The notes under the pieces were generated by a model that had not been told where the DNA came from, ran no database searches, and worked only from the letters and a program-made list of their open reading frames with translations. 63,090 bases of DNA from a virus, in IMG/VR virus record IMGVR_UViG_3300036398_001095, positions 1-63,090 of that record; one strand, written 5' to 3'. The position numbers and the translations under genes are program-made. This document shows, one piece after another, positions 10,951 through 48,664 of this stretch (the stretch's first letter is position 1; each line of letters starts with the position of its first letter).

Positions 10951-11553
10951 CTAAACCTCCAGTTTCAATCCGGTTAAATCCATCTCTTCGCCAACCGTTC
11001 CGGCAGGGAAGGTATTAAATGACAAGCTAACACGAACATCTTCACCTTCCACCGTCGGCACCATGTGCGTCAAACTTGATGGGAAAAGAATCAGCCTGCC
11101 CGTGATTGCTTCAAACCACCATGACTCACTGTTCCAGCTATTCCACTCAGCAGGGGGGAACTTAATCTGGCTGTAGCCGTCACGGTAGAAAAAAATCTTA
11201 TCGTTGGGGTTGGTCTGGATATAAAACACACCAGACACAAATGAATTAGGATGCGCGTGTTTGTGGTGATACTGCCCCGGCTCCGAGTAATTCACCCAAG
11301 ACTGTGTGAGCCTTAGCGTGACATCGTGCTTAGGATTGGTTGTGGCTTTGAAATACTCAGCCACGCAGTCTTCCATCCAGCCGCGCAGGCTCGTCATCAG
11401 CTTATCGCGCAGGACAAAGTTGTTTGCACTTGTGCGGTTGCCCATGTTGGGACGCTGTTCTAACTCCATGAGGAAGAACTTCTCCTCATCAGACAGCGGT
11501 CTACCGAGATCAAAGAACCCAACCGGCTGGGCGAATAGACCGTGCAAATTCAT
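10951..11553 (-). CDS. 2-oxoglutarate/Fe(II)-dependent oxygenase-like protein
   Basis: The ATG at 11553 (ATGA overlap with the upstream gene) gives 200 residues. HKHAHPNSFVSGVFYIQ, then TGRLILFPSSLTHMV, then VRVSLSFNTF match the strand order and metal-binding histidines of the prolyl-4-hydroxylase-like 2OG-Fe(II) oxygenases often found in tail gene clusters. It may hydroxylate a virion protein or a host target. The substrate cannot be told from sequence. The Arg of RVSLSFN is the likely 2-oxoglutarate contact. Confidence 0.75.
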   Translation of the reverse strand: MNLHGLFAQPVGFFDLGRPLSDEEKFFLMELEQRPNMGNRTSANNFVLRDKLMTSLRGWMEDCVAEYFKATTNPKHDVTLRLTQSWVNYSEPGQYHHKHAHPNSFVSGVFYIQTNPNDKIFFYRDGYSQIKFPPAEWNSWNSESWWFEAITGRLILFPSSLTHMVPTVEGEDVRVSLSFNTFPAGTVGEEMDLTGLKLEV

Positions 11554-11801
11554 GCCGCCGCCTTGTTGATCATGTCTGTCCAAGCGTTATGCTCTTTGAT
11601 CTGCTCTTCGGTGTAGATCGTGTTGATGGAATCCTCAAAAGCTTTGATCTTTTCCATCGTGTCTTGCACTTCCTGCCATGTCGGGCAAGGACGTGGATCA
11701 TCCCAGCGTGTGAAATGAGAGTTACTGATTTCCCACTTGGCACCGGGACGAAGCAGTGCCATTGCTGTATCTACACCGTAGAGTCTGTATGTTTTGGTCA
11801 T
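11550..11801 (-). CDS. Small tail-fibre assembly-like protein
   Basis: An 83-residue protein: beta N-terminus (KTYRLYGVDTAMALLRPGAKW), then DDPRPCPTWQEVQDTMEKIKAFEDSINTIY, a helix-rich half. Proteins with the P(C)PTWxEVxxTxxKIKxFEDSINT pattern occur directly downstream of tail-fibre genes in many phages and may be fibre chaperones. It is translationally coupled to the oxygenase. Confidence 0.6.
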   Translation of the reverse strand: MTKTYRLYGVDTAMALLRPGAKWEISNSHFTRWDDPRPCPTWQEVQDTMEKIKAFEDSINTIYTEEQIKEHNAWTDMINKAAA

Positions 11802-27183: not shown

Positions 27184-28104
27184 TCAGTTATTAGGGTTGG
27201 AGTCAATCAGCTTTGCGCGGATTAATGCAAGATCGTTTTCAGTGGGCTTTGAATCAATGCCGCCATATCTAAAACTATACCCAGCTAAACGCCCTTTTGT
27301 TAAATGTTTGCCGGATACCAAAGCCCTACGAAGGGTTGGCATTTTCATTCCGTAGTGGCTCAGCACCGCAGTGAGGCTTGGGAATAAAATGCCATCAGGC
27401 ATAACAAATACAGTTTTGCTCATCTTTTCTTTTGCCTCTTCGGTATGTTTACGTCCTAGCCAGTGCTTATGGCTACGCCCTGATTCAATATTTTCACGAA
27501 TCTTTAAGAGCCCTTCTTCTGAAACCTTGCGACCTTCTACTTTTGGCTTGCCCCGCTGCGCCGCACCAATCTTTGCTTTTGTCTCGTCTGATAGCGTTTT
27601 ACCGTATCGGTAGTGGTTTTCCCCGGCGGTGGGAACCCTGTTTTGTTTAATCTTTAACTTGGTTTCTTCGGTGTGTTTTTTCCCGACACGCGGGTGGTTA
27701 AAGTAATCAGCAGCGTAAAACTCTCGTAGGGTTTTAGATATTTGTTCCTTTTGCATAGGCGTGACAGGAACGCCAAATTTAGGATGCTCTGGTCCAATTA
27801 CCCCGCGCCAAGGCGCAACTGCCGCGTATCCACTGTTATAGCAATGCTCTTTACCTACATGTTGTTGCAACCAATTATCTTCGACTCTCCAAAGCTCTAT
27901 GTCTTGAGCAACCTCTTCAACAACTACAAACTCAAATTTATCTTCGCCGTATTTGTTCCACGATGCTTGCAGGTGCTTGCAATGGTGCCTGTTACCTCGA
28001 AGCAACTTACGGTGTTGCCTGAAGCGAACCTTCTTGTTTGTCGTGCTACCTACATAAAACTTGTTGTTGACCACGTTGATGATTTTATAAATGACTTGCT
28101 CCAT
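27184..28104 (-). CDS. GIY-YIG homing endonuclease with NUMOD3 repeats
   Basis: The start is set at 28104 (MEQVIYKIINVVNNKFYVGS) because GGAGGAAAC lies just upstream; the longer frame has no ribosome binding site. The 306 residues hold the GIY-YIG domain (Y-K-I and Y-V-G, residues 5-95), then NUMOD3-type basic repeats (RVGKKHTEETKLKIKQN, YRYGKTLSDETKAKIG, WLGRKHTEEAKEKM) and a C-terminal DNA-binding segment. It has its own promoter and follows the capsid terminator, so it is a free-standing mobile gene inserted between head genes. Confidence 0.88.
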   Translation of the reverse strand: MEQVIYKIINVVNNKFYVGSTTNKKVRFRQHRKLLRGNRHHCKHLQASWNKYGEDKFEFVVVEEVAQDIELWRVEDNWLQQHVGKEHCYNSGYAAVAPWRGVIGPEHPKFGVPVTPMQKEQISKTLREFYAADYFNHPRVGKKHTEETKLKIKQNRVPTAGENHYRYGKTLSDETKAKIGAAQRGKPKVEGRKVSEEGLLKIRENIESGRSHKHWLGRKHTEEAKEKMSKTVFVMPDGILFPSLTAVLSHYGMKMPTLRRALVSGKHLTKGRLAGYSFRYGGIDSKPTENDLALIRAKLIDSNPNN

Positions 28105-28132
28105 GTTTCCTCCGTTACAAAGCCATAACCGT

Positions 28133-28161
28133 AATGTACCGAAAGGAACTAACAATGTCAA
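28133..28161 (-). promoter_or_regulatory. Sigma70-like promoter upstream of GIY-YIG gene
   Basis: Read on the minus strand: TTGACA, 17 nt, then TACATT. It lies between the capsid terminator and the start at 28104. It probably drives the homing endonuclease and possibly the virion genes after it. Confidence 0.6.
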
Positions 28162-28162
28162 C

Positions 28163-28193
28163 AAACAAAGAAAAAGCCACCCGAAGGTGGCTT
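28163..28193 (-). terminator. Rho-independent terminator after the capsid gene
   Basis: On the minus strand an 8-bp stem AAGCCACC/GGTGGCTT with a TTCG tetraloop is followed by a T-rich run. It lies 34 nt past the capsid stop and just before the homing-endonuclease promoter, so it should end or attenuate the capsid transcript. Confidence 0.85.
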
Positions 28194-28226
28194 CCAAACC
28201 AAGCTAAGTGCTTGATTTTATTGGTA

Positions 28227-34173: not shown

Positions 34174-37100
34174 CTAGTAATAAGCGACCTTGCGGCGATA
34201 CATCGGCTCACGGTCTTCATCGTCTGATTGCAGGCTCAAGAAACCGCCCGTCCTAAAGCGCAATAACGCTTGGGTCATCGAGTCTACTAGGTCATCATGC
34301 TCTCCTGAAGGAAAAGCTGCGACTTCCTCAATCAACTCATCCGCAAACTTACGCTCTGGCACCCAGATCCGCCCCGAGGCAAACAAATCCGATACGGCAT
34401 TTAGCCTCACGATCTTGTCGTTGCCTTTGGTTGGGCTGTACTCACTGACCGGAATACCCATCCTTCGGAGTTCAAAGACCAACGGGCTTCCTGCTGCCTT
34501 GGCTTCAACCAGAAATACATCCGGCTCCCACTCGCGGTAGGTTTCATAAGCCTTCTGCTTAAGTTCAGGGAATTCATATCGGTCCTTAAACGCATCCAGC
34601 AAGATGATATTCGTTTCTCCCTCCTCTGTCGTCCACACACCCCATGTAGTACAAGCAGAAAAGTCAGCCCTATTGTGCTTGAGAAACGCCGTGTCCCAAC
34701 TCTGAATCACAAAATCACATGGCGGCGGCCTATCACCCTCCCAAACCTTCCACCACTCTCGCTTAACAATCGCACCTTCCTCAGCCGTCGGCTGTTGCTG
34801 GTACTGAGCATTCCATTTACCTACCGGCAACTCCTCTTTAAGCGCCAGTAACTCCTCTAATTTCCAAAACTCAGGCCAAACCGGTTTACCAGACGGCATA
34901 ATCGCAGGTAATTCAATAACTTCCCACTCATCACCGCCTCTTGTTTGACTTGCTTTAATAACTTGACCCGTTAAATCCCTTAATGACCACCTGGTGTTGT
35001 GACTAACTACACCGTTTGCTATGAAATTTTCTGTGCGATCAATTTCAACGTCAAAAACTTCTTCCTGTCCATCGGAATCAATCGATATTATTGGGTCCAC
35101 TGTGAAATCTGAGATACGATGCAGCTCGTTCAAGTATGCCCGGAGTTTTTCCGTATCCAACTGTGAGGTTGCAGTCGTTACATAAGAGCCCTCGAACCTT
35201 TCCGGTATCGTGGCAGTGGTCAATGCACAATTTCCCATTCCAATGGGCGCGTGTATTTTTTGTTGATGGGGGCTCACCGCATACATCGCATTTGTTATTA
35301 CGCTCTGCAACCATTGCATCGTATTGATCGACAGTAATCCCGTATCTAGATTTAATCCGCGCCGCCCTGCTGGACTCTGCGTCTCTACGCCCCCTGCCTG
35401 AAGCCCAGTATTTTTTGGCGTAGTGGTCGTGGCATACCCCATCGCAGTGAACAGGCTTCTCGCAACCTTCTTCAGAACACGTTTTACCTTTCCATTTTCC
35501 GTGATACCCAAGCTCTCTTCGTGGTGCATCAGGGTTTTTTCGGTGGTAGCTTTCTTTTGATTGGCATGGTCCGCACATGCCAGGTTTTGTTTTTGACCTT
35601 GACGGCCTGCCGCACCCTTCAACGATACAAGTAAATCCCCGACCCTCAGTTGTTCCAATCTGGTCCATTCCAAGACTCCTTCATTCATAACAAGAAACGG
35701 ATGCCTCTTGTTTGCACGGAGTATTTTACCAGATCGTGTTTGTATTTTGTATATGGCATCAACACCACTTGATTGCCAATTATTGACTTTGCTTGTGGTT
35801 AGCAATCCTTTGTCAAAGGTAGCTACAAGATCATTTTTTCTTATTGCGCCTAGAGGCTTTTCCGTTCCGTCTGCCATCAAAACTGGGGTATCCCCAGTCA
35901 TGCACATTACAATAATAATCGCACCGCCAGGTTGTAATCGCTGCCGCGGACCTGACGTATACCATTCATATACTGAATCAAATATATCTGGTTTATGAGC
36001 CGCTAATTTAGCTTCTTGTTCTGAATGCGGATCATCAATAATTAATAAATCAGCACCTTTACCCGTTACAGAACCACCAACACCGATGGAAAAATACTCA
36101 CCACCCTTATTAGTAGCCCATCGCCCAGCCGATTTATTATCTGCTTTTAGTTTTACATCAGTAAATACTTGATTATATTCTTCTGAATCAATTAAGTTTC
36201 TAACTTTACGTCCAAAACCCACCGCCAATTCAGCAGTATGTGAGGTCTGTATTATCTTTTTATTTGGATTCTTACCCAAAAACCATGCAGGTAATAAATA
36301 ACTGGCAAATTCAGACTTGGTGTTGTGAGTGCATATGTAACCAGAGCCTGACAAAAACAGACCATCCTCTCGCGCCACTTTAATACACTGAGTATTCCCT
36401 GTTTGTTCTAGGCGTTTTATGCTTATATATCGGCCAAATGTTTCTTTTACTTGCTTAGTACGATCTTCTTTGCGCGGTAGTATCGCAATATCTTTTGCGT
36501 AAAACGATATTCTGTATGTTGGGCCGTAGCTTTTTTGACCTATCTTTGCTTCAGTAACCGATAGGCTGTTTTTAATACCCAGGCTAGCAAGCAATTCCCG
36601 AACATCGTCAATAATAAATCTGTTGCTTTGTGCAAATGAGCACTGACCGGCTTTGCTAACGCACCCATCAGTGTCCATCAAGCCTTTTAATAAATCTCGA
36701 CGTTGGTCCGGCGATCCTTCAAGATAGTTGCTCGGTATGTGTTTATCGCCTAATACACCAAGCTCACGCAATTTAACCTTCAGGCCTATAATGCCGAACG
36801 TCATTTTTGTCGATTGATCAGTGGTTTTGTACCCACGTCTTTCAATCTCTGCCCTTACAATTTTTGCATCTTCATTTTCCATGGTGATAACAGCTTGAGA
36901 TGAATGCCCGTCTCCAAGCCAAACACCAAAGACATACGGATCTATCAAAAATTCCTTTCGTTCGTATTCAACCGGGCTTACATCAGGAAGTCTTGGCAAA
37001 CGAGGATTTTTTTGTGTTTTCCCAGCTACAAACTCAACATCGCCGGAACGTTTTGTCCGTAATACCTCGCCGTTTTGACGCCTCCATAACTGCTCCGTAG

Positions 37101-37632
37101 TGTAGTCACGATAAACATTGACGCGCCTATTAAGCCTAACAGTCCATAGATGCTCACCGTCAACCGTAAGCGTTGCGCCGTCGTCAGTCTTTACTTCGTA
37201 CAAATCTCGGCCTTCAAATACTTCTGACTTGCCAAGCACCTGTGTCGGTTTCCCGTCTGGGCCAAAGACGAAATCTCCAATTCGGAGATCCAACATGCTT
37301 TTCCAGCCCTTAGTCGTAGGTATCATCATGCTAGTCATTATAGCATGACGTGGTGCCATATTAATAATAAGACGTTTATTATGTCCATTAACAACATTTT
37401 CAAACGCCTTAGCTACTACTTCATGATGTTTACCAGGAATAAACCCCGGCCACATGCGTTTTACAAACCCCATGAAATCATTTTGAGCGTGGGACTTAGC
37501 ATCTTCCCTCTCTTCCTCCTCTATCTCCTGAAGCAGTATCCGCTTCTCATCCTCAGTAAGTAGATGAAGCTTCCCGGCAGCTGCTTTGGCTAACTGCCTA
37601 ATGTCCAATTTTCTTCCTAACCACCCGAACAC
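34174..37632 (-). CDS. terL: Terminase large subunit interrupted by two inteins
   Basis: 1152 residues as encoded; removing both inteins leaves about 508, the normal TerL length. The ATPase Walker A (NMAPRH + TKSEFASYLL) is split by intein 1 (residues 97-437) and Walker B is LLIIDDPHS (residues about 529-537). Intein 2 (577-879) sits after IIIVM, before TRWSLRDLTG. The nuclease domain contains WDTAFLKHNRADFSACTTWG and later GEHDDLVDSMTQALL with acidic metal ligands. It packages DNA with the portal. Splicing must occur for the ATPase motif to form. Confidence 0.93.
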   Translation of the reverse strand: MFGWLGRKLDIRQLAKAAAGKLHLLTEDEKRILLQEIEEEEREDAKSHAQNDFMGFVKRMWPGFIPGKHHEVVAKAFENVVNGHNKRLIINMAPRHAIMTSMMIPTTKGWKSMLDLRIGDFVFGPDGKPTQVLGKSEVFEGRDLYEVKTDDGATLTVDGEHLWTVRLNRRVNVYRDYTTEQLWRRQNGEVLRTKRSGDVEFVAGKTQKNPRLPRLPDVSPVEYERKEFLIDPYVFGVWLGDGHSSQAVITMENEDAKIVRAEIERRGYKTTDQSTKMTFGIIGLKVKLRELGVLGDKHIPSNYLEGSPDQRRDLLKGLMDTDGCVSKAGQCSFAQSNRFIIDDVRELLASLGIKNSLSVTEAKIGQKSYGPTYRISFYAKDIAILPRKEDRTKQVKETFGRYISIKRLEQTGNTQCIKVAREDGLFLSGSGYICTHNTKSEFASYLLPAWFLGKNPNKKIIQTSHTAELAVGFGRKVRNLIDSEEYNQVFTDVKLKADNKSAGRWATNKGGEYFSIGVGGSVTGKGADLLIIDDPHSEQEAKLAAHKPDIFDSVYEWYTSGPRQRLQPGGAIIIVMCMTGDTPVLMADGTEKPLGAIRKNDLVATFDKGLLTTSKVNNWQSSGVDAIYKIQTRSGKILRANKRHPFLVMNEGVLEWTRLEQLRVGDLLVSLKGAAGRQGQKQNLACADHANQKKATTEKTLMHHEESLGITENGKVKRVLKKVARSLFTAMGYATTTTPKNTGLQAGGVETQSPAGRRGLNLDTGLLSINTMQWLQSVITNAMYAVSPHQQKIHAPIGMGNCALTTATIPERFEGSYVTTATSQLDTEKLRAYLNELHRISDFTVDPIISIDSDGQEEVFDVEIDRTENFIANGVVSHNTRWSLRDLTGQVIKASQTRGGDEWEVIELPAIMPSGKPVWPEFWKLEELLALKEELPVGKWNAQYQQQPTAEEGAIVKREWWKVWEGDRPPPCDFVIQSWDTAFLKHNRADFSACTTWGVWTTEEGETNIILLDAFKDRYEFPELKQKAYETYREWEPDVFLVEAKAAGSPLVFELRRMGIPVSEYSPTKGNDKIVRLNAVSDLFASGRIWVPERKFADELIEEVAAFPSGEHDDLVDSMTQALLRFRTGGFLSLQSDDEDREPMYRRKVAYY
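34996..35904 (-). other. Intein 2 in TerL (303 aa), hosts an out-of-frame endonuclease gene
   Basis: It begins with Cys at extein junction IVM/C (CMTGDTPVLMADGTEKPLGA) and ends IANGVVSHN before Thr, the standard C1...HN/T splice junctions. Blocks A (CMTGDTPVLM), B (around RANKRHPFLV), F (VFDVEIDRTENFIANG) and G are visible. The region where an in-frame homing domain usually lies has an unusual, low-complexity reading in the intein frame, and in another frame it encodes an endonuclease VII-like protein. Confidence 0.9.
35078..35668 (-). CDS. Endonuclease VII-like homing endonuclease nested out of frame in intein 2
   Basis: 196 residues in a frame different from TerL on the same strand. Its own AAGGAG site lies 7 nt before ATG. 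Zinc-finger-like CxxxC/CGxC pairs occur near the N-terminus (CIVEGCGRPS, MCGPCQ; CSEEGCEKPV, CHDHYA). The C-terminal nuclease domain has YGITVDQYDAMVAERNNKCD, CGEPP, LCIDHCHDTGKVRGLLCNDC and NLTVGYGKTPGIL, the classic endonuclease VII/HNH pattern. It fills the endonuclease slot of the intein, but as a separately translated protein. Confidence 0.9.
   Translation of the reverse strand: MDQIGTTEGRGFTCIVEGCGRPSRSKTKPGMCGPCQSKESYHRKNPDAPRRELGYHGKWKGKTCSEEGCEKPVHCDGVCHDHYAKKYWASGRGRRDAESSRAARIKSRYGITVDQYDAMVAERNNKCDVCGEPPSTKNTRAHWNGKLCIDHCHDTGKVRGLLCNDCNLTVGYGKTPGILERAASYLRFHSGPNNID
36322..37344 (-). other. Intein 1 in TerL (341 aa) with LAGLIDADG endonuclease
   Basis: It starts at Ala after PRH (AIMTSMMIPTTKGWKSMLDL) and ends SGYICTHN before Thr, so the first residue is Ala rather than Cys or Ser, as in class 2 inteins. 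Splicing blocks include VKTDDGATLTVDGEHLWTV (block B, with T-x-x-H-like core). The homing domain has the two DOD helices YVFGVWLGDGHSS and LLKGLMDTDGCVS. It interrupts the Walker A motif, a typical conserved target site. Confidence 0.92.
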
Positions 37633-43756: not shown

Positions 43757-45276
43757 ACCAATCTCCTGCCAAACTTACTCTTTGCATACTTGATGACCTG
43801 CTGCTTGATCTTGTTCTGTGTAACCATCCTTGGCTCCACAAAGATCGCCTCGTGAAACTTCCACTTAGGCCAATCCCCCGTCAGGTTCTTGTACTGGGCC
43901 TTGGCAAATCGCTCAGCCGCCGCAAGATCCCCACGCTTCCTGTCCTTGCTGATCTGCACAATCTCCCACCAAACAAGACGCTTATCCGACATCCAATCCG
44001 ATGACTTGGTGCCGCCAAACTCCACCATCTGGCCAGCCGTATTCAGTACATTGCTTGCAGACCTGCGCTCTGCCCCGCACGATGGGCACACCCGGCCGCG
44101 GAACATGTACCCGCACGCCGTGCATTTGATCTCTGCCTTCTCTTTCTCAGTGGGCTCCTTGCGTACCTTGGCGTCTAGCTTTCCATCCTCTAATTCCTGT
44201 ACGCCATGGGCAAATACCTCTACCTGATCCTCCCAGAACCGAGTGAGGTTGCCTGCGTGATCCAGCCACACAGCGAAGTCCTTGCCGGGATGCGGGCGCA
44301 TAACCCTGCCCATCTGTTGAATGTGACCCGATAATGATTTTCTATATGGCCTGGCACATACACCGATTTTAATATCTGTAACATCAAATCCTTTTGCCAG
44401 CGCTTCACAAGATATTAATCCGATAATATCGCTGTCAGGTTTTCTGAACTCATCAATTAATTCCCTGCGTCGTTCGTTATTACCATCTTTATAACTGATC
44501 TGCTGAAAGTTATAACCCCTCTGTGCAAACTCTCTGCATAATTCCTCACCGTGTGCAACGGTTGCGCTAAATACAATGGTTTTAACTGGGCCATTAAAAT
44601 GTTTATTGGTAGCCTCGATCCACTCAGAGACGACATCGCCAACGATCTCAACCCCTTGTTTTTCCATGTCTTTTTCTGCCCACTCGCCATCGAACTTAAC
44701 CGCGGCGCCACGCATATCCATCTCAGACTTCGCTACAAACATTTTAACGGGCACTAACCAACCGTCATTAATTAGTTTATCGGTTGTCGTGCTATTTACT
44801 ACGTTAGTAAATATCTTTGATAATCCTTTTGTAAATGGCGTTGCAGTTAATCCAACAACAATTGCATCAGGATATTTTTCAATCGCATTAATTACTGAAC
44901 GGTGTAATACATGCGCTTCATCTACCACTATAAGCTTTGGAGCGTTATCTATCTTGCGTCTTGCCAATGTCTGTGCGGATATAACCTGCACATATTCATA
45001 TGGACGCCAGCGCCAGTGATCCGCCTGTATGACGCCATGAGGTACGCCATACCTATCCAGTGTTGTACTGGTCTGGTCTACCAGTGACACCCGATCGCAT
45101 ATGAACCAAGCTACGTTCTGCTTGGCCCTTGCTTCGTTCAGTAAGTAGCTGGCACTTACAGTCTTGCCCGCTCCGGTGGGCGCCACCAGGATCTGTGACC
45201 GGTGCCCTTTACGGACACCATCACGTAGCTCATCCAGTGCTTTGATTTGGTAGTCACGCAGACTTTCGATCAGCAT
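43753..45276 (-). CDS. SF2 DNA helicase
   Basis: 507 residues. Motif I is LVAPTGAGKTVSAS (residues about 30-43), motif II DEAH (VVDEAHVLHRSV), motif III GLTATPF and motif VI QQMGRVMRPHPG. The C-terminus has a zinc finger CTACGYMFRGRVCPSCG. It resembles phage RAD3/UvsW-type replication-repair helicases. It sits between the ParB-like and primase genes, with a 23-nt overlap upstream, so it is probably part of the replication module. Confidence 0.9.
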   Translation of the reverse strand: MLIESLRDYQIKALDELRDGVRKGHRSQILVAPTGAGKTVSASYLLNEARAKQNVAWFICDRVSLVDQTSTTLDRYGVPHGVIQADHWRWRPYEYVQVISAQTLARRKIDNAPKLIVVDEAHVLHRSVINAIEKYPDAIVVGLTATPFTKGLSKIFTNVVNSTTTDKLINDGWLVPVKMFVAKSEMDMRGAAVKFDGEWAEKDMEKQGVEIVGDVVSEWIEATNKHFNGPVKTIVFSATVAHGEELCREFAQRGYNFQQISYKDGNNERRRELIDEFRKPDSDIIGLISCEALAKGFDVTDIKIGVCARPYRKSLSGHIQQMGRVMRPHPGKDFAVWLDHAGNLTRFWEDQVEVFAHGVQELEDGKLDAKVRKEPTEKEKAEIKCTACGYMFRGRVCPSCGAERRSASNVLNTAGQMVEFGGTKSSDWMSDKRLVWWEIVQISKDRKRGDLAAAERFAKAQYKNLTGDWPKWKFHEAIFVEPRMVTQNKIKQQVIKYAKSKFGRRLV

Positions 45277-46072
45277 GTTTCTTCCAATACATGACTTGTT
45301 TCTTAAGCTCGGCGCACTCCCGCTGCCACTTGTCCCGGGCCTCGGTAAGGTTGTCGATCGTGGACTGCATCTGCTTCATGGTCTGGTAGTGCTCTGTATC
45401 CCTGAGCGCTGTAAGGATCGTGACTTCCTTGGCCAGCTCTTGGTAGTTATCAAGGATCTCTTGGTACTGCTCATTCAGCTCGTCATAGGCCACCTTCAGG
45501 GCGTCATACTTGTCCTGTGCCACGGCTGACTTCAAGACAGGCTTAACGGGCGCTGGAGGCACGTTCTCTGGCTCTTCCTTATCTACCGCCCTGATCGCCT
45601 CTGAAAGGCTCATAGCCCCTTTCTTGACCGCCTCAATGACCTCCTGGTCGCCTGACTGTGCAACCTTCTTGGCCCGCTCTACCGATCGCTTACCTACTCC
45701 AGCACGCTTAGCCATCTCATCTGAGGTAATTCCGCCAGCTGGCGGAATTTGATACTTTCGTAGGGGGGTACCCACGCCTGCCCATGTGCTGCAAGTGACC
45801 ACGGCCATGGCTTTTTGTGCTGGTGATAGATGGCGGCGATGAAGGTTCAGGTCGATGACATAGGCCACTGGGTCTTTGCCATCGTATTCATGGAAGGATG
45901 GATTGATGTCCAGCTGTAAGCAGGCACGGAACCGGTGCCATCCGTCCAGGATCTTGTTCTCGTATGTGGTGATGGGTTCACGCTGCCCGTGGGCTTTGAT
46001 GGATTCCAATAGGTCTTGGAAGTCCTCATCGGGCATGTCAGGGAATGCTGCTGATAACTGGTGTCTTTCCAT
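45254..46072 (-). CDS. ParB-like nuclease-domain protein with in-frame palindromic element
   Basis: 272 residues. ParB/Spo0J-like domain: FQDLLESIKAHGQREPITTY, then ILDGWHRFRACLQLDINPSF (the GxHR-type motif) and VIDLNLHRRHLSPAQKAMAV. The palindromic insertion, KYQIPPAGGIT at residues 106-116, lies exactly between this domain and the HTH (SDEMAKRAGVGKRSVERAKK). The C-terminus is a long coiled coil. The ATG at 46072 follows AGAGAGAG. It is the first gene after the guide array and may be cotranscribed with it. Confidence 0.85.
   Translation of the reverse strand: MERHQLSAAFPDMPDEDFQDLLESIKAHGQREPITTYENKILDGWHRFRACLQLDINPSFHEYDGKDPVAYVIDLNLHRRHLSPAQKAMAVVTCSTWAGVGTPLRKYQIPPAGGITSDEMAKRAGVGKRSVERAKKVAQSGDQEVIEAVKKGAMSLSEAIRAVDKEEPENVPPAPVKPVLKSAVAQDKYDALKVAYDELNEQYQEILDNYQELAKEVTILTALRDTEHYQTMKQMQSTIDNLTEARDKWQRECAELKKQVMYWKKHADRKSA
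45726..45765 (-). repeat. Palindromic in-frame element, copy 4 (in parB-like gene)
   Basis: Core CCGCCAGCTGGCGG at 45732-45745 with perfect AATT arms, then TGATACTTTCGTAGGG on the plus strand. The minus-strand reading in the ParB-like protein is KYQIPPAGGIT. Confidence 0.92.
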
Positions 46073-46089
46073 ATCTCTCTCTTAGTTAA

Positions 46090-47603
46090 TGACGCTCGGT
46101 GACTTTGGTGCTCACGATTTTTTTGACTCACTTCGTTGGCTTGGTTCTCTCAGCGATGGTGGTTCGTTCGTGTACTTTGGTTCTCTCAGCCTGGCTGACT
46201 CACTTCTCTATCCCGGTTCTCTTACCTGCGTTGGTTCGTTCTAGCTCCCTGGGTCTCTCGGCAGTTGCGACTCACTCTCTTACGGTGGATCTCTCACAAA
46301 TAGTGGTTCGTTCGCGTGATTTGGTTCTCTCAGTTTGCATGACTCACTCTCATACCAAGGTTCTATCGCAATCTCTGGTTCGTTCTGGACGATTGGTTCT
46401 CTCTCTTTTTCTGACTCGCTCGGCCGAATTGGTGCTCTTGGCCAACTTGGCTCACTCTCGATTTATGGTTCTCTTCCATTGCTTGGTTCGTTTACAACTT
46501 GTGGTTCTCTCCGTTAACTTGACTCACTCTGGGCGGATGGTGCTCTGGGCTCGAGTGGTTCACTCCAGGGGGATGGTTCTCTCGGGGGGCATGGTTCACT
46601 TGACCGATTAGGTTCTCTCTTCGCTCTAGGTTCGTTCGGCTGACCCGGTTCTTTCTGCGTCGATGACTCACTTGCCAGTCATGGTTCTCTCTAAATCGGT
46701 GGTTCGTTCGGCTGACTCGGTTCTATTCGCGTCGATGACTCACTTCCCGGCAATGGTTCTCTTGCTTGTTTAGGTTCGTTCCTGTTGGCAGGCTCTCTTA
46801 CCCGACATGACTCACTCTATCAACGGTAAAACTATCAGTGGTCTTGGTTCGTTCTGGTGCATTGGTTCTCTCTCGCATGTTGACTCGTTCACCTGCCTTG
46901 GTTCTCTCGGCAACATTGACTCGCTCTGCATATATGGTTCTCTCACGATGACTGACTCGTTCACGATGCGTGGTTCTCTTGGGCGCTATGACTCGTTCGC
47001 ATGAATTGGTTCTATCGGCTTCATTGACTCACTTCCTCAGCATGGTGCTCTTTATACCCCTGGCTCGTTCTGCGTGTATGGTTCTCTCGCTTTTAGTGAC
47101 TCGTTCTGCCACATTGGTTCTCTCTGGACGGATAACTCGTTTGATCTCCTTGGTTCTCTCGATGCTTGTGACTCGTTCTCGTGATATGGGTATCTCGGGC
47201 TTCTTGACTCGTTCGAGACCATTGGTTCTCTCAGCGTTCATGACTCGTTTGCCTCATATGGTTCTCTTCCATCCGCTGACTCGTTCGTGTCATATGGTTC
47301 TCTTCTCGCTATTGACTCGTTCCAAAACCCTGGTTCTCTCTTCACTGTTGACTCGTTCTGACTGATTGGTTCTCTCTTCAAAAATGACTCGTTCTCGCTA
47401 TATGGCGCTCTCGCAACTGATGACTCGTTCTCATGGGCTGGTTCTCTCTTGAAATTTGACTCGTTCGCTTTTGCTGGGCCTCTTTTGTCCTTTGACTCGT
47501 TCTCTTCTGTTGGTTCTCTCGCGCCGAATGACTCGTTCTATGGTTTTGGTTCTATCTTGTTCGATGACTCACTCAATCCATTTGGTGCTCTTGCAGAGCT
47601 TGG
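46090..47603 (-). repeat. TIGR (tandem interspaced guide RNA) array
   Basis: 83 ten-base cores occur at an exact 18-nt period from 46106 to 47583, with one +1-nt slip at 46826-46836. Cores alternate between type A (TGGTTCTCTC) and type B (TGACTCACTC, TGGTTCGTTC or TGACTCGTTC); between them are 8-nt variable spacers. The A-B pair is 36 nt, the reported tigRNA size. Stops fall in every frame, so it is not a protein repeat. A degenerate core lies near 46090 and a partial core abuts the tas stop codon at 47601. The minus-strand cores read GAGAGAACCA and GAACGAGTCA. Transcription probably runs on the minus strand from the tas operon. Confidence 0.93.
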
Positions 47604-48398
47604 TTAAACAGGTGAAGGTATGAAATGAGCATGGCCCATGTGTGCAATCGGATAAGGCAGCGGCGGCTTCGTACCAAAGTGCGTCTCATACCATGCGCCA
47701 TGGAGATGGCTCAGGAATAGCTTGACCGCATACCTTCTTGCCCTTGCATCGATCTGGCCCGGTGGCAGTACGCCATTGGACAGATGCTTAAAAGCTTCCG
47801 TGGTCTTGCCTACCTTCTCCTTCAGTTGCTCGGCCAGTTCCTTGTTATCACCACGCTCATTGCGGGCGATCTCAAAGTTCTTGCGCTCCCTGTAAATGTG
47901 ACCGTAGTAGCAGTCATCACGGCCAGAGAATTTCATGAAGGATTGGCCGGCCTTCCAGCAAAGCGTCTTCAGTCCTGCATTCCATGGGCGCTTCTGTCCC
48001 TTCTCCCATTTGCTTGTGGGATCTAATCCAGCATAGCGCCAGATATGCCCAACGGTAGGAGCCTTCTCAATATCAATGTGCGCTAACAGCCCCGCGGAAA
48101 TGACCGGGCCGATGCCAACGATCTGACGCATCCATGCACCCATGACATGCGACTCAGTGTAGGAATCAAGCGCCTTCTTGATCTGCTCTTCCAGCCCCTT
48201 GGATTGGGATGCTAGCCAGCCGATCACTGCATTGGGCTCCATGGATTCATCCAGCGCCCGGACTTGGTTGGTGGAGCGCTTACGGTCTTCTTGGGCGATG
48301 TAGTAGTAATCGACCAGGAATCTTGCCTCATCATCAGACAGCTTGGCGGCTGCGACTTTAAGGTCTTTGGTCAGCTTCATGATTGGTTCTAAGTTCAT
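47604..48398 (-). CDS. tas: Tas protein (nuclease-less, TasA-like): IS110/Nop-like RNA-binding protein
   Basis: 264 residues. Helical N-terminus with coiled coil (residues 10-90). MRQIVGIGPVISAGLLAHI (90-108) and GHIWRYAGLDPTSKWEKGQK (117-136) with PWNAGLKTLCWKAGQSF are the IS116/IS110-type C-terminal transposase pattern, a fold related to box C/D snoRNP Nop proteins. ARARRYAVKLFLSHLHGAWY (218-237) is the closing helix. There is no DEDD, HNH or RuvC domain, so it should bind guides and DNA without cutting alone. The start overlaps the wHTH gene by 4 nt; its stop touches the array. Confidence 0.88.
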   Translation of the reverse strand: MNLEPIMKLTKDLKVAAAKLSDDEARFLVDYYYIAQEDRKRSTNQVRALDESMEPNAVIGWLASQSKGLEEQIKKALDSYTESHVMGAWMRQIVGIGPVISAGLLAHIDIEKAPTVGHIWRYAGLDPTSKWEKGQKRPWNAGLKTLCWKAGQSFMKFSGRDDCYYGHIYRERKNFEIARNERGDNKELAEQLKEKVGKTTEAFKHLSNGVLPPGQIDARARRYAVKLFLSHLHGAWYETHFGTKPPLPYPIAHMGHAHFIPSPV

Positions 48399-48664
48399 AG
48401 TTTCCCCGCTAGGTTGAATGGGTCATGCCAACTAAATTGTTTATAGGTGTAAAGCAACTGATTAAATCGGACCGGGTGTTTGGTTGCTGTGACATAACCA
48501 AGCCCAGTCAGTAAACGCAAACGCTCTGCCGCCGTGGTTCTTGAGACGCCAAAGTGTTTTGCAGCATCCTCTGACGTGAAAGGTTCTTTACGTTCCTTTA
48601 TCCACGCCAGATAAGATTCATCGATGGGTTTCACTACTACCCCCTTGCCAAGTACCACGCCCAT
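48395..48664 (-). CDS. Winged-helix DNA-binding protein (89 aa)
   Basis: Residues about 15-70 form a winged helix: YLAWIKERKEPFTSEDAAKH, FGVSRTTAAERLRLLTGLGY, VTATKHPVRFNQLLYTY. It resembles MarR/ArsR-like or Tas-operon regulators. The gene is directly upstream of tas with ATGA coupling. It may control the operon or assist the guide complex; this is inferred. Confidence 0.75.
   Translation of the reverse strand: MGVVLGKGVVVKPIDESYLAWIKERKEPFTSEDAAKHFGVSRTTAAERLRLLTGLGYVTATKHPVRFNQLLYTYKQFSWHDPFNLAGKL

Follow-up and report, generated by a model that had tools for sequence, protein, structure and literature searches.

The locus at positions 45254-48664 of the IMG/VR virus record IMGVR_UViG_3300036398_001095 raises the question of what a gene annotated in databases as an IS110-family transposase fragment is doing beside a dense array of ten-base cores. 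A preliminary description of this DNA, made from the sequence alone, had proposed a nuclease-less TIGR-Tas system. We analysed the whole stretch of 63,090 nucleotides (nt), hereafter the window, together with related loci in IMG/VR, and we conclude that the locus is very probably a TIGR-TasA system that is carried by a phage and belongs to the TasA-TasParB type. A ParB-like partner, the use of the minus strand, a pairing code in the array and the wide occurrence of the family in IMG/VR had all escaped the preliminary description. The tasA gene, the array and the ParB-like gene lie on the minus strand, and the argument starts from the first two:

47604-48398, minus strand: tasA, encoding a 264-amino-acid (aa) nuclease-less Nop-domain Tas protein (PDB sequence search, AlphaFold2 model with Foldseek, 27-member alignment)
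46093-47605, minus strand: TIGR array of 42 guide units, 41 of 36 nt and one of 37 nt (core lattice, unit table, covariation)

Identifying the family of the 264-aa protein is crucial to interpreting the locus. A PDB sequence search ranked TasR (9mty, E = 2e-12) and TasH (21kl, E = 2e-10) far ahead of IS621 (E = 0.0065), and a profile built from the 27-member alignment gave the same order (TasR 5e-20, TasH 8e-12, IS621 6e-4). The AlphaFold2 model had a predicted local distance difference test (pLDDT) score of 84 and a predicted template modelling score (pTM) of 0.81; in Foldseek, TasR and TasH were its top matches (E about 2e-6) and IS621 followed at 0.03, so the kinship envisaged earlier holds for the fold as well. 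Pfam detected a weak Transposase_20 region alone (22.3 bits), and Pfam, the model and Foldseek revealed a Nop-like region and no HNH or RuvC nuclease domain in the 264 aa, in agreement with the earlier claim of a Tas without a nuclease. Judged on these matches, the protein is a TasA by the definitions of Faure et al. (2025; PMC12045711). PHROG 4285, which is labelled transposase, matches TasA over its full length (E = 1e-49), and members of that family are probably mislabelled. In the alignment, the Nop region of some relatives contains insertions: loci L021-L024 carry 48 additional aa around the KW segment, and L030, L033 and L037 a cysteine-rich stretch after LAHI.

The array comprises 83 ten-base cores, running from 47592 down to 46106 and starting 12 nt past the tasA stop; short spurious core chains were filtered out before counting. 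This bears out the 264-residue protein beside 83 cores reported previously. Core spacing is 18 nt in 81 of 82 steps and 19 nt in the remaining one, around the degenerate core of unit 22, where the period formerly called exact breaks. Two core classes alternate strictly and give a 36-nt unit, as had been noticed: a loop, GAGAGAACCA, and an edge, which is not a single repeat but several alleles (GAACGAGTCA, GAGTGAGTCA, GAACGAACCA, GAGTGAACCA). Matches to the strict two-core pattern number 33 in the window, every one of them inside the array, whereas 100 dinucleotide shuffles yielded none; chance can therefore be excluded. The first unit starts with AACCA, a 5'-truncated edge overlapping the tasA stop, and the last ends with GAGCG, a 3'-truncated edge; since truncated edges flank both ends, the paired-spacer guides number 42 rather than about 41. 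The type-1 core is assigned as the loop and the type-2 core as the edge because the truncated array ends are type-2 cores, because the breakpoints of unit gain and loss fall in type-2 cores, and because type-2 halves pair across units. Dual repeats (of a size within the 8-12 nt of TIGR arrays), 8-nt spacers, the 36-nt unit and truncated edges agree with the TIGR arrays of PMC12045711 and, together with the Tas matches in sequence and fold, support the TIGR-Tas identity. The array can be divided as follows:

46850-47569, minus strand: tasA-proximal part, where a mostly uniform edge (GAACGAGTCA) alternates with the loop GAGAGAACCA (unit table)
47174-47209, minus strand: guide 12, with A = AGAAGCCC and B = TATCACGA, matching terL codons for YHDWAS in other phages with a 2-nt gap
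46093-46849, minus strand: distal part, where edges mostly alternate between GAACGAACCA and GAGTGAGTCA, giving a 72-nt superperiod
46813-46849, minus strand: irregular unit 22, 37 nt long with the degenerate loop GATAGTTTTA, kept in L002 and L004

We show that the edge alleles are matched with one another according to a simple rule: base pairs form between positions 7-8 of an edge and positions 4-3 of the edge that follows, that is, at the two ends of one guide. Between neighbouring edges, both pairs were Watson-Crick in 38/40 cases and one was G-U in the other 2/40, while pairing inside one repeat occurred in 18/41, against a shuffled expectation of 20.9 (p = 0.001, the floor of 1000 shuffles). 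When the 41 full-length units were counted with the truncated end edges, which also obey the rule, 82/82 cells were paired with 24 two-sided changes, a result reached by 0/500 shuffles. Across the 27 arrays with clear parity, Watson-Crick pairs made up 502/542 and 524/542 cells at the two positions, and the remainder included 45 G-U against 5 A-C. Because G-U is far commoner than A-C among the non-Watson-Crick cells, the RNA is the tasA-sense (minus) strand. The pattern thus shows, as far as sequence comparison can, selection that would act on a processed 36-nt minus-strand RNA.

In PMC12045711, the TasR structure shows pairing between different repeats of one processed tigRNA, and repeats are stated to be conserved within a locus. 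At this locus, edges instead vary in matched alleles, and such locked edge alleles within one array appear to be new as far as the text of that paper goes. The edge-allele code is sequence evidence that nature preserves a paired-end 36-nt RNA of the type seen in the TasR structure, for TasA too.

Comparison among relatives shows how such arrays change. TasA proteins with 47-100% identity are encoded at 37 IMG/VR loci, nearly all of which carry arrays (9-128 detected cores) that mostly start 12 nt past tasA and in some cases lie upstream; in the close group, the start is exactly 12 nt past the tasA stop at every locus. Aligned arrays of close relatives have blocks in common, with many gains and losses of units. 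Of the clean indels, 62 of 65 added or deleted complete A+B units, usually between one and four at a time; the 65 are not independent events, since the comparisons share ancestry. Turnover is spread along the whole array rather than confined to one end, and the guides most often common to relatives are units 30-35, in the distal part. Within collinear runs, spacers changed at 1-5% per site versus about 11-30% at 4-fold sites of tasA, a spacer figure somewhat biased downwards by the choice of such runs; in the same runs among close relatives, spacer A changed 31 times versus 9 for spacer B. Guide families vary most at the 3' ends of their spacers. An edge half was inherited with its own guide in 190/198 cases versus 178/198 with the neighbouring guide, a slight difference.

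Furthermore, among about 500 distinct guides we found six pairs, in three families, in which A and B are exchanged (≤2 mismatches), and 0 pairs in three control sets with re-dealt, mispaired B spacers. Both A/B orders of a guide thus appear to be made in nature. Exchanged guides are consistent with RNA-guided binding of both DNA strands, with both orientations presumably reading one double-stranded site, and swapped tigRNAs are described as functional in PMC12045711. The bacterial search returned one relative, L039, at the end of a Candidatus Propionivibrio aalborgensis contig, where TasA is 69% identical and an upstream array carries the same repeats; the contig is a possible clue to the host.

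The array is followed by the putative partner gene, and an additional small gene precedes tasA:

45254-46072, minus strand: ParB-like protein of 272 aa, candidate TasParB (PHROG 4715), starting 20 nt past the array
48395-48664, minus strand: helix-turn-helix (HTH) protein of 89 aa (Pfam HTH_11), its end overlapping the tasA start by 4 nt

The ParB-like gene matches PHROG 4715 with E = 2.5e-17 and adjoins the array in ten related loci; from family and conserved position, we regard it as a candidate TasParB. The HTH gene also stands upstream of tasA in L002-L007 and L038, and its product is a possible regulator of the tasA operon. An Rfam search matched no family, and no Cas proteins were found among six neighbouring proteins searched.

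Could the same observations be explained without a guide RNA? The annotation as an IS110-family transposase fragment with unrelated repeats draws on the Transposase_20 match and the PHROG label, and we find it scarcely credible, given that TasR and TasH are far better matches than IS621 in both sequence and fold. Moreover, the N-terminal DEDD domain of IS110 transposases is absent (Pfam, Foldseek), and the PDB sequence search aligns the YESGS segment of IS621 with WEKGQ, so that the serine, which we take to be catalytic, is missing from TasA. Dozens of loci also retain a member of the family (47-100% identity) together with its array. It is likewise very improbable, if a little less so, that the array is a set of double-stranded DNA sites (iteron or parS-like) for the ParB-like protein. 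Such sites would suit the short periodic cores and the gene directly adjoining them; however, the halves that pair come from separate repeats, with 26 nt of spacer and loop sequence between them (38/40, versus 18/41 within a repeat), G-U cells are nine times as frequent as A-C, which is meaningless for duplex DNA, spacers are conserved, and arrays are present without ParB. Several results nevertheless weigh against a TIGR-TasA system with TasParB. Many related arrays have no ParB-like gene next to them, so that the gene is not essential to the system, and the AlphaFold2 model of its product is poor (pLDDT 63). No sigma-70-like promoter was found, and no rho-independent terminator was found after the array on the minus strand. 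Finally, the 504 guides showed no excess of split matches in TasA-locus DNA at any gap under either orientation model. Leaving aside guides used for selection, such matches were likewise not in excess in 80 portal relatives, in 64 terL relatives or in other viral DNA (>2 Mb).

For the TIGR-TasA system that we favour, we propose that minus-strand transcription would take in tasA and the array together, and that cleavage midway through every edge repeat would release 36-nt tigRNAs that consist of half an edge, spacer A, loop, spacer B and half an edge, with both edge halves base-paired. By analogy, a TasA dimer would then sit on the tigRNA, with A and B binding opposite strands of a split DNA site and no cutting taking place. 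The ParB-like protein would be a DNA-binding partner. The most likely effect would be to keep other mobile elements, probably rival phages, from being expressed or replicated; as to biological purpose we can only infer, and repression of competitors is plausible.

The search for targets assumed the order A-gap-reverse complement of B, taken from the 3' overhangs reported for TasR, and the reversed order was also tested. The paired-spacer search recommended in the preliminary description gave no overall excess of split matches in phage DNA for the 504 guides. When viral contigs were scanned with guide 12, 16 sites emerged, of which 6 lie in terL genes belonging to two lineages with about 46% identity. 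Each of these six matched exactly as A-NN-reverse complement of B with a 2-nt gap (candidate site TATCACGA-NN-GGGCTTCT) over the codons Y-H-D-W-A-S. This motif is nearly invariant among terL relatives, which encode it in many codon variants, and it differs in the terminase of the window itself. In the A/B-exchanged versions carried by arrays L014 and L018, YHDWAS remains encoded through different Tyr and Ser codons. Among other candidates, the exchanged guide family TTCGAGTC/TTGAAAGT and the widespread guide 13 matched just close relatives or unrelated genes and were set aside, and guide TCAGTTGC/ATATATGA, which matches a structural gene in L099, L109, L147 and L169 with a gap of 2, was judged weak, the site region being nearly identical there.

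Two readings of purpose need to be weighed. That the guides are directed at conserved genes of rival phages, with guide 12 and its relatives aimed at the terL nuclease motif YHDWAS, is a tentative reading that we hold at somewhat short of even: it accounts for two diverged lineages sharing the site at an invariant gap and for the two further arrays with exchanged versions, while a control pattern with the guide 12 halves rearranged gave 4 matches. On the other hand, it rests on one guide family out of four scanned in all, with the motif recognised post hoc, the other guides showing no excess and two other scanned families lacking diverged homologues. In addition, guide variants lack the codon periodicity expected of coding targets (p = 0.38), and some family variants no longer encode YHDWAS. 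Because this guide family alone behaves so and the other tests are negative, we treat the terL match as a lead suggested by sequence, not as a finding. A role other than attack on rivals, in which the system would regulate or assist the host or the genome of the phage itself (for instance by RNA-guided support of replication or integration), seems unlikely to us. The lack of a nuclease, the ParB partner and adjoining helicase and primase genes would fit such a role, and DNA bending for integrases is raised as an option by Faure et al. (PMC12045711); yet none of the window's guides finds an exact split site within the window itself, where near matches are not above controls.

A more comprehensive proposal, rather doubtful when taken as a whole, is that these are multi-allelic TIGR arrays with matched edge halves per guide (at least four alleles: GT/AC, AC/GT, GC/GC and AT/AT), each guide being a self-contained module gained or lost whole with its own end match kept, and that some guides of the bank are directed at conserved packaging genes in rival phages, recognised in either orientation and with a 2-nt gap. 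If true, such packaging genes would be the first targets of a TIGR system to be recognised in nature. Three questions were left unanswered in the 2025 description: how the arrays originate and change, what nuclease-less TasA does and what any natural array targets. Closely related phages with differing arrays make all three testable, and a first target candidate is supplied here.

Other features of the window were noted on the minus strand. The terL gene (34174-37632) contains two apparent inteins: the first, of LAGLIDADG type, covers approximately residues 100-430, and the second is a further splicing domain at 600-879. Inside the second, out of frame on the same strand with both frames open, lies an endonuclease VII/HNH reading frame (35078-35668; PF02945, E = 7e-20). 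A GIY-YIG/NUMOD3 homing-type endonuclease (27184-28197) adjoins the capsid gene, and a 2-oxoglutarate-Fe(II) oxygenase-like protein (10951-11583; PF13759) is encoded among structural genes.

Compared with known systems, the array resembles CRISPR in its repeats, variable spacers and turnover of whole guides, but it has paired 8-nt spacers and 10-nt repeats against CRISPR repeats of 25-36 nt, its gains and losses are internal rather than confined to one end, and there are no cas or adaptation genes. The IS110/IS621 bridge-RNA recombinases share the Nop-like RNA-binding region (Transposase_20), whereas the present system lacks the DEDD domain and an IS621-like catalytic segment and has an array in place of a single bridge RNA. 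TaTIGR-TasR (PDB 9mty) is alike in its Nop fold, in the pairing of edge halves from different repeats within the processed RNA and in a box C ending in CA, and differs in its RuvC nuclease, 9-nt spacers and boxes (UG and CCA there, GA and (C/T)CA here). SpTIGR-TasH of Salicola phage CGphi29 shares the 8-nt spacers, the phage origin and protein homology (30.7% over 112 aa), with an N-terminal HNH nuclease that is lacking here. The closest counterpart is TIGR-TasA with TasParB as described in PMC12045711, with which the locus shares a Nop-only Tas, a dual-repeat array of 10-nt repeats and 36-nt units, truncated edges at both ends and the placement of the array between tasA and a ParB-like gene. 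It departs from that description in having 42 units where published arrays mostly have 5-15, in matched edge alleles that vary where repeats are there conserved within a locus, and in an array without the terminator, typical there and not required, the ParB-like gene following 20 nt on. The kind of system is thus already known, and what is new here are the multi-allelic edges, the variant features and the comparative evidence.
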